NCBI RefSeq assembly: GCF_000023225.1
Contig: NC_013173.1
Location: 3,350,501 to 3,414,500, forward strand
DNA length: 64,000 nt
Direction of reading: 5' to 3'
Source of the DNA: Desulfomicrobium baculatum DSM 4028
GTDB lineage: Bacteria; Desulfobacterota; Desulfovibrionia; Desulfovibrionales; Desulfomicrobiaceae
In this document: positions 13,068-19,625 of the stretch, piece by piece
How the letters are laid out: each line of letters opens with the position of its first letter
How positions within the stretch are numbered: position 1 is the first letter of the stretch
Program-made: the position numbers and the translations under genes
The notes under the pieces: model-generated
Told to the model about the DNA's origin: nothing
Database searches by the model: none
The model's input: only the letters and a program-made list of their open reading frames with translations

Positions 13068-13140
13068 CGCCCCGGTAGCCTCGCCCGGTCGCGATTTTTT
13101 TGGCGTAATTCAAGGCAGCGCTCATCAAGGGAGGCATCCG

Positions 13141-14394
13141 ATGGTCAAGCTGATCGACGTGAAGATTCTCAAGATTTTTGTGAGCGAGGCGGTGCGGCAC
13201 AAGGGCGCGCCCCTCTATGACGTCATCGTGAACGAAGCCCGCCGGCGCGGCATGGCCGGGGCTTCCGTTTCCAGGGGGGTCATGGGCTTCGGTGCGAGCA
13301 ATCTTCTGCATACGGCCAAGATCCTGCGCCTGGCCGAGGATCTGCCGGTCATCGTCGAGATCGTGGACACGCCCTCGCGCATTGCCGATTTTCTGCCGGT
13401 GGTCGACGCGCTCGTCGAGGAAGGAAGCATCGTGGTTCAGGACGGCCAGGCCATTTTCCACCTGCCCATGCGCATCCGCGACGTGATGACCGAGCAGGTC
13501 GTTACCGTGGGAACGCAGACGCCCCTGGACGAGGTGGTGGAGTTGCTGTTGCGCAGGGAAGTCAAAGCCGTTCCGGTCATGGAGGCCGGACGCCTCGTGG
13601 GCATCATCACCGGCGGAGATCTGCTGGCCCGGGCGCGGATGCCCCTGCGGCTGGACATGCACGGTCACGTACCGACCGACCTGCGCCACAAGCACAGCCA
13701 TTGCATTGAATTTGAGGGATTGCGAGCGCGCGACATCATGTCGGCGCCGGTCACGACCCTGAACATCACGACCACGGTCACCGACGCCCTGAAGATGATG
13801 GCGGCCCGGAACATCAAGCGCCTGCCGGTCACGTCCGAAGACGGAACGCTGATGGGCATCGTCAGCCGCACGGACGTGCTGGCCGCCATCGGACGAACCT
13901 CCGCGGTGGCGGCGCATCTCGACGTTCTGCCCGCCGGGATGCACGCCTGCGCCCGGGACGTCCTCTACACGAACGTGCCCACTGCCGCGCCGGACGCGCC
14001 CCTGGCCGGGGTTCTGGAACAACTCGTCGCATCTGCGCTGCGCCGGGTGGTCATCGTGGACGCGGACAAGACGATCCTGGGCATCATCCATGACTGGGAC
14101 CTGTTGCAGTGTTTCGTGCGTCAGAACTCCCCCACGCTGGTGGCCAGACTCCTCGGCATCCTGACCCAGCGCGAGACCGAGCCTGCAGCTCTTGAAGGCA
14201 TCGCCGAAGAGGTCATGTCCCGCGAGGTCTTGACCGTAGGCCCGGACGCGCCTTTAAGCGAAGTCATCCAAATCCTGATGGACAAAAAGGTCAAACGGCT
14301 CGTGGTTGCAGATCAAAAAGGGCATCTGCTCGGCATGGTCGACCGGGACGTGATCCTGAAGGCGCTGGCCAGACAGATCTCGCCCGCGCAATAG
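13141..14394 (+). CDS. DUF190 protein fused to four CBS domains
   Basis: A 417-residue soluble protein. Residues 1-105 match DUF190, a PII-like fold (KILKIFVSEAVRHKGAPLYD, RRRGMAGASVSRGVMGFG). Four CBS domains follow as two pairs, each starting with a RDVM-, RDIM-, RDVL- or EEVM-type motif and ending with GIITGGDLL, GIVSRTDVL, GIIHDWDLL or GMVDRDVIL. CBS pairs bind adenosine nucleotides and DUF190 proteins are small signal sensors, so an energy- or ligand-sensing role is likely, but no partner is encoded beside it. GGGAGG precedes ATG 13141; the longer frame from 13006 overlaps the gene before and is rejected. Confidence 0.85.
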   Translation: MVKLIDVKILKIFVSEAVRHKGAPLYDVIVNEARRRGMAGASVSRGVMGFGASNLLHTAKILRLAEDLPVIVEIVDTPSRIADFLPVVDALVEEGSIVVQDGQAIFHLPMRIRDVMTEQVVTVGTQTPLDEVVELLLRREVKAVPVMEAGRLVGIITGGDLLARARMPLRLDMHGHVPTDLRHKHSHCIEFEGLRARDIMSAPVTTLNITTTVTDALKMMAARNIKRLPVTSEDGTLMGIVSRTDVLAAIGRTSAVAAHLDVLPAGMHACARDVLYTNVPTAAPDAPLAGVLEQLVASALRRVVIVDADKTILGIIHDWDLLQCFVRQNSPTLVARLLGILTQRETEPAALEGIAEEVMSREVLTVGPDAPLSEVIQILMDKKVKRLVVADQKGHLLGMVDRDVILKALARQISPAQ

Positions 14395-16520: not shown

Positions 16521-16543
16521 AGGGGAGTTCGGCTCCCCTTTTT
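16521..16543 (+). terminator. Intrinsic terminator after ferredoxin
   Basis: Seven-base stem AGGGGAG / CTCCCCT with a TTCGG loop and a run of five T. Confidence 0.85.
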
Positions 16544-16638: not shown

Positions 16639-17322
16639 ATGGAAACACGCACCGAAAAAAAATATGTCCTCGACATGGCCCAGGCCCTTTTAGCCAAGAC
16701 CATCATCAGCGCGCACTGCCTGCCCGATCCGCATTTTGCCGCAGCCACGGTGCACAGCATCTATTATGACACTCTCGACCTGCAATTCCTGAGCGAAAAG
16801 ATCGACAGCACCTATTTCAAGGCCAAGGTTCGCCTGCGCTGGTACGGCGACTGGGACTTCAAGCCCGACAACGGACCGGCCTTTCTCGAGGCCAAGATCA
16901 AGGAGGGCGGATTGCAGCGCAAGGTGCGAATTCAGGTCTCCCGCACCGGACGCGAACTGGCGCTGCTGTCTCTCGGCGACCCCGAACTGGCCACCCTGCC
17001 CGCCCTGCTCGCCACACGCGGCGTAGGGCTTTGCGCCTCGGCCAGGCCGGTCTTCGTCATCAGCTATCGCAGGATGCGCTTCATCGATCCCATGACCGGC
17101 GTCCGCATCGCCCTTGATCAGGACATACACGCGTCGCGTCACGCCCTGTCCTGTCCCGGGGCGGCAGGGTCGCCGATGCTCTCCAGCGCCGTCATCGAAA
17201 CCAAGGGAAACCTCGCAAGTCTCCCCCCGTATCTCGCGCCACTCATGACCATGGGGCTTAGGCCCGAGTCCTTTTCCAAATACCTGCACTGCTACCAGAG
17301 CCTGATGCAGCAACATATGTAA
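16639..17322 (+). CDS. VTC-domain polyphosphate polymerase family protein
   Basis: A 227-residue soluble protein of the VTC/CYTH tunnel fold, the domain that in yeast Vtc4 makes polyphosphate from ATP. Tunnel-lining motifs are in order: METRTEKKYV at the N-terminus, YYDT, KAKVRLRWYGD, FLEAKIKEGGLQRKVR, SYRRMRF, RIALDQDI and VIETKG (metal-binding Glu). No membrane or SPX domain is present. The only in-frame ATG at a sensible point is 16639; the ribosome-binding site (AAGAG) is weak. It is followed after nine bases by the DUF4956 gene, then a CotH gene. Enzymatic activity is inferred from fold and residues only. Confidence 0.85.
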   Translation: METRTEKKYVLDMAQALLAKTIISAHCLPDPHFAAATVHSIYYDTLDLQFLSEKIDSTYFKAKVRLRWYGDWDFKPDNGPAFLEAKIKEGGLQRKVRIQVSRTGRELALLSLGDPELATLPALLATRGVGLCASARPVFVISYRRMRFIDPMTGVRIALDQDIHASRHALSCPGAAGSPMLSSAVIETKGNLASLPPYLAPLMTMGLRPESFSKYLHCYQSLMQQHM

Positions 17323-17331
17323 GGAGGCCCT

Positions 17332-18063
17332 GTGAACGAACTTCTCCCCAACAGCGTGGATTTTTTGGCCAACATATACGAGGCGCTGATCAAATCAGGA
17401 ACATCCGGCCATGAAGAGATGGCGAACGTGGGCCTGACCACCTTCTTCATCCTGCTGCTGGTGTCCTTTTTCGCCTCGCTCTACATTTCGCGCCTCTATA
17501 TCCGCTTCTACCGGCCGCGCGGCACCGGGAGCCTCGCCTACCGCTCCTTCCCGCTTCTTGGCATCTCGGTCACGGCCATCTTCATCTGCGTGCAGTTCTC
17601 CCTGCCCCTGTCCCTGGGCCTTCTGGGCGCGCTGTCCATCGTCCGTTTCCGTACCCCCATCAAAGAGCCCGAAGAAGTCGGATTCATCATGTTGACCATT
17701 GCCACCGCCATTTCCTGCGCAACCTTCAATCTTCTGTTCCTGCTCATTCTGCTGGCCGTCTCGACCTTCGGGCTGTTCCTCATCAATTGGCGCGGCCTGC
17801 CCCTGGCCGCCAGCGAACAGGGCACGATCCTCATCAATCTGCCCGGAAGCAACGCCGAAGCTTCCGCGACCACATTTTTACCCAGCGTCACCGGCATCGC
17901 CGGCGTGCGGGTCATCTCCGTGGTGGAAACCACAGAAGGCGCGGCCGTGACCCTGCGCTTCGCCAAGGGCAGCCCCGACCTTCTGACCCGTGTGCGCGGG
18001 CACGCCCTGACCTGCGCCCAGGGGGCCACGGTCTCCATGTTCAACGACCAGGTCAGCATCTGA
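17332..18063 (+). CDS. DUF4956 integral membrane protein
   Basis: A 243-residue protein. About four membrane helices lie in the N-terminal 150 residues (FFILLLVSFFASLYIS, FPLLGISVTAIFICVQFSL, LGLLGALSIV, LLFLLILLAVSTFGLFLI). The SIVRFRTPIKEPEEVGFIML loop is the most conserved DUF4956 segment, with basic and acidic residues near the membrane face. A soluble C-terminal 90-residue domain follows. Start GTG 17332 has AAGGAGG upstream. Its TGA overlaps the next ATG (TGATG). DUF4956 genes commonly accompany VTC-domain genes (known association); the molecular role is unknown. Confidence 0.88.
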   Translation: MNELLPNSVDFLANIYEALIKSGTSGHEEMANVGLTTFFILLLVSFFASLYISRLYIRFYRPRGTGSLAYRSFPLLGISVTAIFICVQFSLPLSLGLLGALSIVRFRTPIKEPEEVGFIMLTIATAISCATFNLLFLLILLAVSTFGLFLINWRGLPLAASEQGTILINLPGSNAEASATTFLPSVTGIAGVRVISVVETTEGAAVTLRFAKGSPDLLTRVRGHALTCAQGATVSMFNDQVSI

Positions 18064-19625
18064 TGCCCGGGCCGCTCAGACGCCCGCTCGTCCTGCTGCT
18101 TGTCCTCTGCGGTCTGATTCTGGTCTACTTCGGGCTACGCCTGAACCAGTGGGGGGAGGAACGATCCTGGCGCATCGCCGTCTTGAGAGACGACCTGGGC
18201 AGTTCACGCAAGTCATCCCTGCTCGCCAAGCTGGGCATCCCCGTTACCGTCCAAAGACAAAAGCATGATGCCTCCGCCCTGATCGACGCGGCCCGGAACG
18301 ACGCGCGCCCCTTGGCCGATTCCGCCATGCGGGTGGTGGCCATCCGCGTCGCGGACGAAGACCTCTATGATCCGGAAACCGGGCTCAAGGCCCACAGCCG
18401 CGAACGGGGAAGAAACTGGGAGCGTCCGGCGGGCGTCGTGGTCATGCAGGACGGGCGGGAGCTTTTGGCCGCGCCGGCCGGAATACGGCTGCAGGGCAAT
18501 CGCGACACCCGCGACATGCTGCACAGCTTTCGCCTCTATTTTCGGAACAGCTATGGGCAAAAGAACGTTCCGGGCACGGCGTTCCTGGACGGTTCCGCAA
18601 TGAAGATCCGCAAGGTGGTCGCGCGCACGGAAAAAAACCTCGTTCCCGGCTTCGTGAGCATGCTCGCCTTCGACGTGGCCAGGCGCATCGGCTCCATAAC
18701 CCCGGACTATGCGCCGATCGTGCTCTACAGAAACGGCGAGAATCTTGGTCTTGGTCTAGCCAGCGAACACGTCAACCGCACGCACTGGGAACGAAAGCTA
18801 CGCCACAAGGATTTCGCATTTTACATGCTGGAGTCCGACAATTCCGTCCTGGACACGGCCAGGTACAAGGCCCTGCGACTGCGCCTCGATCCTTTCTTCG
18901 GCCTGTGGGACTATGAACGCGTGGCGGGCATACTGGACCTGGATGATTTCATGAACGCCATAACTGCCTTTGCCTTTCTGCAATGGCAGGACTGGAACCA
19001 GGGCGCCTTCCTGCTGGACGACACGCAGACGGAGCCTCGCTGGCGCAGCGTACTCTGGGATGCTGACCAGGCTTTTGCAGGGCTTCGCGCAAACGCGATT
19101 CCCGCCAACCGGGCAGGCTGGAAAAACTTCCGCGACGCCCACGGCATGCGGGCCTCCGTCTTCAAGGGGATGTGGGATACCAGCCCGCGCTTCAGAAAAG
19201 AGATGCTGTGGCGACTGACCTGGAGCATCAACCATCGACTGACGCGGGAATGGATCGCGGAGCGCGTCCGGCATTATGCAGGGCTGGAAAAAGAAGCCGG
19301 ACTCGAATGCTTCGACGAAAATCTGGCGCTGTCCTATCTGCTCGAACGCCGCGCAGAACTGCCGGCCGAAACCGTGCGCGAACTCGGCGCGCCCGAAACC
19401 GTCACGTGCCGCGTGCAAAGTCCCGAGCCGCTTCTCATCGACGGCGAAACATGGGGCAACGCATACGAAGGCATCTATTTCAAAGGCCAGACAATATCCC
19501 TCGAAGCACCTCCTGGCCGCGCCGTCTCCCGCTGGGAAGTCGACGGCCGCGAAATCCGGGAACCCCGACTCGAACTCGAACTCCACGCCGACACACGCAT
19601 CCGCGCCGTTTTCTCCTCGGATTAG
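18063..19625 (+). CDS. CotH-kinase family membrane-anchored protein
   Basis: A 520-residue protein with a single N-terminal hydrophobic segment (PLVLLLVLCGLILVYFGL), so it is probably anchored or exported. The central 350 residues match the CotH fold, an atypical protein kinase known from spore coat: RLQGNRDTRDMLHSFRLYFR, YAPIVLYRNGENLGLGLASEHVN and RSVLWDADQAFAG with the metal-binding WDxD. The last 65 residues (GQTISLEAPPGRAVSRWEVDG ... RIRAVF) resemble a divergent InlB-type beta repeat. Translation is coupled to the DUF4956 gene. Its 3' end overlaps the convergent MFS gene by four bases. Substrate unknown. Confidence 0.85.
   Translation: MPGPLRRPLVLLLVLCGLILVYFGLRLNQWGEERSWRIAVLRDDLGSSRKSSLLAKLGIPVTVQRQKHDASALIDAARNDARPLADSAMRVVAIRVADEDLYDPETGLKAHSRERGRNWERPAGVVVMQDGRELLAAPAGIRLQGNRDTRDMLHSFRLYFRNSYGQKNVPGTAFLDGSAMKIRKVVARTEKNLVPGFVSMLAFDVARRIGSITPDYAPIVLYRNGENLGLGLASEHVNRTHWERKLRHKDFAFYMLESDNSVLDTARYKALRLRLDPFFGLWDYERVAGILDLDDFMNAITAFAFLQWQDWNQGAFLLDDTQTEPRWRSVLWDADQAFAGLRANAIPANRAGWKNFRDAHGMRASVFKGMWDTSPRFRKEMLWRLTWSINHRLTREWIAERVRHYAGLEKEAGLECFDENLALSYLLERRAELPAETVRELGAPETVTCRVQSPEPLLIDGETWGNAYEGIYFKGQTISLEAPPGRAVSRWEVDGREIREPRLELELHADTRIRAVFSSD

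Follow-up and report, generated by a model that had tools for sequence, protein, structure and literature searches.

A cotH gene, a polyphosphate polymerase gene and a gene for a DUF4956 protein have been described as accessory genes of Pel in streptococci, clostridia and bifidobacteria (PMC7112168), where regulation of Pel by phosphorylation was also suggested. The DNA analysed here, a stretch of 64,000 nucleotides from Desulfomicrobium baculatum DSM 4028 (NC_013173.1, positions 3,350,501 to 3,414,500 of the forward strand; hereafter the window), carries the same three families in contiguous genes in the order VTC, DUF4956, CotH (positions 16639-19625). This trio is a conserved unit, each part of which is recognisable, and it is mostly independent of Pel. 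The latter is new here: the authors of a 2025 mBio paper looked for the arrangement outside Pel without success (PMC12345266), and no description of a Pel-independent trio, or of the pyrophosphatase that accompanies it in some lineages, was found in the literature searched, preprints and most subscription journals lying outside its scope.

The homologues of the trio in Streptococcus intermedius (SIR_1592-1594) were deleted one by one (PMC12345266). As far as that account was available, the CotH mutant aggregated less and made less Pel, the DUF4956 mutant aggregated less and made more Pel, and in aggregation buffer a significant difference was seen for the DUF4956 mutant only. An earlier note on the window had stated that, to its author's knowledge, no function was shown for these genes. 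This is not quite right, since deletion of CotH or of DUF4956 alters Pel and aggregation; for the VTC homologue no change is reported there. In Clostridium perfringens the locus NELoc-2 likewise carries two VTC genes and a CotH gene, each VTC gene being followed by a gene annotated as tubulin/FtsZ-like that is possibly a DUF4956 candidate; it differs from the window in also carrying a glycosyltransferase gene and others (PMC2879425, as far as available).

The yeast VTC complex has a channel lined by basic residues that are needed for vacuolar polyphosphate (PMC9911596), and the vacuole, the destination of its polyphosphate, is described as holding the polyphosphatases Ppn1 and Ppn2 (PMC7381174). 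The trio resembles the eukaryotic complex (Vtc1/3/4) in a Vtc4-type polymerase domain with the active-site residues kept, in a membrane partner whose basic residues are conserved and, in some lineages, in having enzymes beyond the membrane that cleave polyphosphate or pyrophosphate. It differs in that its VTC protein has neither an SPX domain nor a fused Vtc1-type membrane domain, in that its membrane partner is MgtC-like, and in an extra kinase-fold protein outside. We know of no other bacterial counterpart of VTC-coupled polyphosphate export; the trio would be the first.

Unlike the Pel accessory set, the window trio has a ferredoxin gene on one side and an MFS/HlyD pair on the other, and does not adjoin pelDEADAFG. 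PelG (PF16933) gave no match in the window genome. Among 46 genomes hand-picked from the 80 loci described below (44 with the full trio, that of L067 without CotH and that of L076 without VTC), PelG was found in three and gave no match in 43; many of the 46 are incomplete metagenome-assembled genomes (MAGs), and some of these absences may be false. Pel was therefore rejected as the setting of the trio in the window genome and in most of the genomes searched, and the trio is freed from the context in which it has been studied so far.

Linkage of the VTC, DUF4956 and CotH genes

Loci were collected with six DUF4956 proteins as queries. The best 80 of 582 confirmed matches were taken, so that the sample leans towards DUF4956 proteins like that of the window; its lineages include Planctomycetota, Acidobacteria, Verrucomicrobia, Bacteroidetes, Anaerolineae, Clostridia, Myxococcota and Pelagibacteraceae. 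DUF4956 was recognised by its profile in 86 loci drawn from these 80, the window and five loci of the window's phylum, and 72 of them carry VTC, 70 CotH and 62 both. Where at least 4 kb was available on each side (57 DUF4956 loci), VTC was present in 55, CotH in 52 and both in 50. The order of the genes differs between loci (V-D-C, D-C-V, C-V-D, C-D-V and D-V-C, by initials), while linkage is kept. The profile overlooked the DUF4956 protein of L011 (Pfam expectation value (E) 3.6e-50), the gene of which has VTC less than 200 bases away. The recurrence of the association claimed in the earlier note is thus borne out; rare co-occurrence, named there beforehand as the refuting outcome, was looked for, and trio-type DUF4956 did not show it.

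In 297 genomes of the window's phylum searched at E 0.001, DUF4956 was found in seven, VTC in 11 and CotH in seven (six over the cut-off), and all genomes with DUF4956 and all with CotH also have VTC. Fisher tests on these phylogenetically non-independent genomes gave p of about 9e-12 for DUF4956 with VTC, 5e-11 for DUF4956 with CotH and 9e-12 for CotH with VTC. Together with the locus counts they rule out chance adjacency. Distances within the families are also correlated (n = 48, uncorrected for species kinship), with r 0.89 for VTC and DUF4956 (0 of 2000 permutations), 0.54 for DUF4956 and CotH and 0.50 for VTC and CotH, the first CotH in the file being used where a locus has two.

Two further orders and a control set were searched. 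In the order of the Pelagibacteraceae genome holding L037, 31 of 247 genomes have DUF4956, in 27 of them over the cut-off. From the 34 listed matches 25 loci were fetched, L037 being already included and eight, mostly near contig ends, being omitted; VTC was present in 23 of the 25 and a recognised CotH in 17. In Flavobacteriales, to which the Dokdonia genome with L085 belongs, DUF4956 was found in 77 of 246 genomes. At each of the 30 best loci VTC lies no more than 1.5 kb away, and CotH is absent from this short flank throughout. Of the 14 named genomes serving as controls, three have VTC and the same three have DUF4956, namely Bacteroides ihuae, Corynebacterium glutamicum and Methanosarcina acetivorans; CotH is present in C. 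glutamicum, M. acetivorans and Bacillus subtilis.

The Pfam DUF4956 family therefore includes genes that stand alone or pair with VTC as well, and of the three partners CotH is the most loosely attached. The earlier note's view of the genes as one unit stands as regards co-occurrence, adjacency and correlated distances; it does not extend to DUF4956 genes that occur alone or in pairs with VTC. Eight Flavobacteriales loci (L144-L149, L153 and L154) carry DUF4956 without VTC or CotH in the fetched flanks; seven of the eight proteins are 185-189 amino acids (aa) long, and these lone genes are perhaps a separate subfamily. Within the window's phylum, L164, L166 and L167 have VTC genes, in one case a tandem pair, without a recognised DUF4956 or CotH, and their genomes gave no DUF4956 match.

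Properties of the three proteins

The VTC protein (16639-17322, plus strand; 227 aa) matches PF09359 with E 2.2e-26 (93.3 bits against a cut-off of 23). The domain occupies residues 4-222, and no membrane segment was seen. Sixteen positions are invariant across 74-75 aligned VTC sequences, the window's included, among them K8, R65, R67, K86, K95, R145, R156, E187, K189, S213 and K214. Identity among trio VTCs is low, at 23-29% to that of the window. A profile of seven sequences (the window and six of its phylum) matched Vtc4 in the PDB at 8.2e-22, Vtc2 at 3.1e-9 and Vtc3 at 4.5e-6. On alignment to 3g3q and 5iiq, equivalents of the Vtc4 tunnel residues, already read from the sequence in the earlier note, are all present: R264, R266 and E426 of Vtc4 map to R65, R67 and E187, and the remaining tunnel positions we take to be K200, K281, K294, R361, R373, S457 and K458. 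In yeast, R264, R266 and E426 were changed together in a mutant complex used for structure determination (PMC9911596). This conservation strongly suggests that selection keeps the polymerase active site; it is evidence for the site and not for the product, which we infer to be polyphosphate. PPK1 (PF02503) gave no match in the window genome at E 0.001, so that VTC may carry more weight there. PPK1 is present in 19 of 34 searched genomes, 33 of which have all three trio genes, and a role of VTC as a general substitute for PPK1 was not upheld.

The DUF4956 protein (17332-18063, plus strand; GTG start, 243 aa) matches PF16316 with E 8.6e-10 (39 bits against 30.6). Its structural model (mean predicted local distance difference test score, pLDDT, 84.6) has the multi-span membrane region and soluble tail that had been proposed, with five predicted helices at residues 35-59, 69-87, 91-105, 113-130 and 134-153 and a C-terminal ferredoxin/ACT-like domain at 162-238, the tail being beta-alpha-beta-beta-alpha-beta. 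In 88 sequences R105 and R107 are invariant and K111 is kept in 97%. Lysine plus arginine averages 2.4, 3.1 and 2.1 in the cytosolic segments and 0.7, 0.6 and 0.2 in the outside ones (88 sequences, segments of unequal length), and an N-out/C-in topology with five helices is predicted. R105 and R107 would then be located where helix 91-105 ends on the cytosolic side, a candidate entry point for a chain from VTC.

The N-out orientation fits Anaerolineae homologues in which a leader and an N-terminal LamG-like domain precede the membrane part (Pfam scan of two of the five). Such DUF4956 proteins of 448-527 aa with N-terminal 3keto-disac_hyd, mostly from Anaerolineae, were seen in L026 (9281-10627), L047, L049, L050 and L051. 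The extra domain is a possible natural marker of topology and a candidate glycan sensor.

DUF4956 aligned to MgtC/SapB (PF02308) with an hhalign probability of 97.1 and E 5.8e-11 over 199 columns, nearly its full length; the MgtC profile was built from three of four MgtC loci, L194 being omitted for its uncertain start. The first Foldseek match of the tail is the C-terminal domain of MgtC (E 9.5e-3, a common fold). DUF4956 differs from MgtC in giving no direct PF02308 match at E up to 1 and in its conserved motif, GALSIVRFRT. By these profile comparisons DUF4956 is a distant MgtC relative. No solved relative of the membrane part appeared: no Foldseek match reached E 0.001, the VIA-align rows span residues 160-243 only, and PDB sequences searched by profile contained no match at E up to 1. 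The S. intermedius homologue is also described as MgtC-like; it is given an ACT tail and four membrane segments, not five (PMC12345266).

The CotH protein (18063-19625, plus strand; 520 aa) matches PF08757 with E 2.6e-10 (40.8 bits against 23.8). An N-terminal hydrophobic segment is followed by the CotH domain (about 87-444) and a C-terminal beta domain (446-517), and the WDAD motif is present, as previously proposed from the sequence. Its model (mean pLDDT 85.9) superposes on Bacillus cereus CotH (5jd9) with Z 28.2 and a root-mean-square deviation of 2.9 over 315 residues, the next molecule reaching Z 12.8, and a profile of 42 trio-type CotHs found the same B. cereus chain at 1.5e-54. B. subtilis CotH is reported to lose activity with D228Q or D251A (PMC7821199). 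D310 and D333 of the window protein are their counterparts, being likewise 23 residues apart; the assignment was made by this spacing and through an alignment to B. cereus CotH, not to the B. subtilis sequence itself. The protein thus shares with the Bacillus spore-coat kinase (5jd9/5jda) the fold and both tested Asp positions. It differs in adding an N-terminal membrane anchor and a C-terminal beta domain, in linkage to VTC and DUF4956, and in an altered N-lobe Lys and catalytic loop, with Ala five residues past D310 where B. cereus CotH has the catalytic-loop Asn. These positions vary widely in the family: Lys is present at 153/154 in 46 of 60 CotHs and at neither in 14, and Asn at +5 in 12. 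Given this variation, a pseudokinase, considered because of the altered N-lobe and loop, is no more than possible.

The hydrophobic N-terminal segment is found in 54 of 58 CotHs, and surface-type domains are LTD (9 of 42), Fn3_assoc (11 of 42) and PKD (4 of 42). A second group of CotHs (L012, L028, L053, L071 and others), many of about 860-1000 aa and often with His at the first Asp, is tied to the first by an hhalign E of 1.6e-52. A right-handed beta-helix is found by Pfam in 14 of its 25 members, and those with His possibly have a different chemistry. The Pfam CotH model is reached at E 0.001 by 40 of 42 proteins of the first group and 16 of 25 of the second, so that 11 of 67 fall short. In L020 (1109-3391) CotH is fused to an FGE-sulfatase (formylglycine-enzyme-like) domain.

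A proposed phosphate transfer and competing explanations

Accessory genes were counted in 136 loci, made up of 111 (including four with VTC only) and the 25 of the Pelagibacter order. An inorganic pyrophosphatase is encoded in eight, always with a hydrophobic leader, and its gene is directly adjacent on the same strand in six (L037, L084, L094, L168, L172 and L176). A calcineurin-like metallophosphoesterase is encoded in 12, with a leader in 11, and is adjacent in ten. Pfam upheld the three pyrophosphatases tested and placed two of three phosphoesterases over the Metallophos cut-off, that of L036 lying just below it (21.1 against 21.5); the pyrophosphatases of L168, L172 and L176 were recovered by a profile built without them, and the PDB matches of the L037 protein include 'acidocalcisomal pyrophosphatase'. 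The pyrophosphatase gene lies between CotH and VTC in L172, upstream of DUF4956 in L084, L168 and L176, and downstream of VTC in L037 and L094, and because of these differing positions the association probably arose more than once. L037 (8993-14744) and L094 (9881-15806) have five-gene operons of metallophosphoesterase, DUF4956, CotH, VTC and pyrophosphatase in differing orders. The simplest explanation of a leader-bearing pyrophosphatase beside a cytosolic polymerase is that phosphoanhydrides reach the outside, and the genes for secreted pyrophosphatase and phosphoesterase suggest phosphoanhydrides beyond the cytoplasm.

Cthe_2159-like carbohydrate-binding proteins are encoded near VTC and DUF4956 in six loci, two of them with CotH (two tested with Pfam), which hints at a glycan setting. 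In L067, L079 and L088 such a protein follows VTC-DUF4956 directly, with no CotH recognised, as if replacing it.

The explanation tentatively favoured is that the trio is an extracytoplasmic phosphate-transfer system in which polyphosphate is made inside, passed out via DUF4956 and used by CotH. Its topology would parallel that of the yeast vacuolar VTC complex, the vacuole being replaced by the periplasm or cell surface. In the cytosol the soluble VTC protein would build polyphosphate from the gamma-phosphate of ATP. The cytosolic tail of DUF4956 would dock VTC at the membrane, and the growing chain would go outward through DUF4956, past the invariant arginines of its cytosolic side. CotH, anchored in the membrane and facing an outside where ATP is scarce, would take phosphate from the delivered chain and place it on a surface glycan or protein. 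In some lineages the secreted pyrophosphatase and metallophosphoesterase of the same operon would clear leftover short chains. The stricter form, with polyphosphate delivered through DUF4956 as the direct phosphoryl donor of CotH, is doubtful. The earlier note had likewise proposed that a phosphate polymer or phosphoryl group is made inside, passed across by DUF4956 and used outside; the active site, the predicted N-out/C-in topology, the N-terminal segment of CotH and the leader-bearing accessory enzymes agree with this, while transport by DUF4956, use of the chain by CotH and the nature of the acceptor are steps that we infer.

If polyphosphate is the phosphoryl donor of CotH, glycans or proteins would be phosphorylated without ATP outside the cell in many phyla, independently of Pel, and in some lineages the system would be completed by secreted pyrophosphatase and phosphoesterase. 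The source of ATP for the spore-coat CotH reaction is called an unanswered question in PMC7821199. With polymerase, membrane protein and exported kinase-fold protein in one unit, the trio makes the phosphate supply of extracytoplasmic kinases directly testable, and it suggests that bacteria may power surface chemistry with exported polyphosphate.

Several observations weigh against this explanation. The main published one is that the S. intermedius VTC-homologue mutant aggregates and makes Pel (PMC12345266, as far as available): Pel may not be a readout of VTC, or the genes may act separately. Because the three mutants differ, an obligatory three-step chain is not seen in that species. B. subtilis CotH used ATP in vitro (PMC7821199). 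The window CotH has Leu-His at the Lys-Lys site of the B. cereus 'KKS', and His replaces the Asp equivalent to D310 in 19 of 60 trio-type CotHs; for both reasons kinase activity of CotH is uncertain. We know of no role of MgtC proteins as a polymer channel. The partners also occur apart: VTC and CotH are both missing from eight of 20 hand-chosen wide Flavobacteriales loci, DUF4956 from four of the 11 VTC genomes in the sample of the window's phylum, CotH from Bacteroides with VTC and DUF4956, and VTC from B. subtilis with CotH. The pyrophosphatase and phosphoesterase are confined to a minority of loci that does not include the window, and could work on other phosphate compounds.

The contrast between the S. 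intermedius mutants also fits a regulatory module, in which VTC and DUF4956 would sense or buffer cytosolic phosphate or ATP and control a surface polysaccharide, with CotH using another donor. The relation of DUF4956 to MgtC points the same way, since effects of MgtC on ATP synthase and phosphate metabolism are cited in the available part of PMC12345266, as does the regulation of Pel by phosphorylation proposed in PMC7112168. Such a module is nevertheless unlikely, as it leaves the complete Vtc4 active site and the leader-bearing pyrophosphatases of the operons unexplained, and PelG was not found in most of the trio-bearing genomes searched.

The same genes and topology would serve for a surface coat of polyphosphate exported by VTC and DUF4956, with CotH anchoring or capping the chain on a protein, lipid or glycan, and the LTD, Fn3_assoc and PKD domains of CotH, like the beta-helix of the second group, are in keeping with this. 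The secreted pyrophosphatase and phosphoesterase of the same operon would, however, erode such a coat, and to our knowledge CotH has no polymer-attachment activity; a coat is improbable. Little credence is given to a tunnel enzyme that makes another product, or only hydrolyses, with DUF4956 and CotH handling what it makes. Triphosphate tunnel enzymes catalyse diverse reactions (PMC4641920, as far as available) and the trio VTCs are divergent, but the Vtc4 active-site residues are kept in all 74-75 sequences and the profile favours Vtc4 over Vtc2 and Vtc3.

The locus and its neighbours

The tight coupling first read from the window is present at both junctions. VTC and DUF4956 are separated by a 9-base gap that contains most of the Shine-Dalgarno sequence AGGAGG of DUF4956 (17322-17327, plus strand), its first base being the last base of the VTC stop codon, and the DUF4956 stop and CotH start overlap by one base in TGATG (18061-18065, plus strand). 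A terminator-like hairpin with an 8-pair stem and a T-rich tail (16521-16539, plus strand) lies after the upstream ferredoxin gene and before the trio. It gives a weak hint that the trio is a transcription unit of its own, such hairpins being no commoner than chance (four found against a shuffle mean of 3.5). The scan of the locus found no sigma-70-like promoter (shuffle mean 0.8), and an NCBIfam scan of the trio proteins gave no match close to any cut-off.

Each of the three families has one locus in the single-contig genome of 3,942,657 bases. No pyrophosphatase, phosphoesterase or Cthe_2159-like gene is present in the window's own locus, and no recurring fourth gene was seen by eye in the open reading frame lists of the window-like loci L017-L023. 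L017, from a Desulfovibrionales MAG, is the closest locus, with 81% identity in DUF4956 (among the best 80 of 582 matches). The scanned neighbours are MFS, HlyD and DEAD helicase genes downstream and ferredoxin, OmpA, MotA/ExbB and DUF190-CBS genes upstream. The last of these (13135-14394) encodes a DUF190 domain and four CBS matches in one protein.

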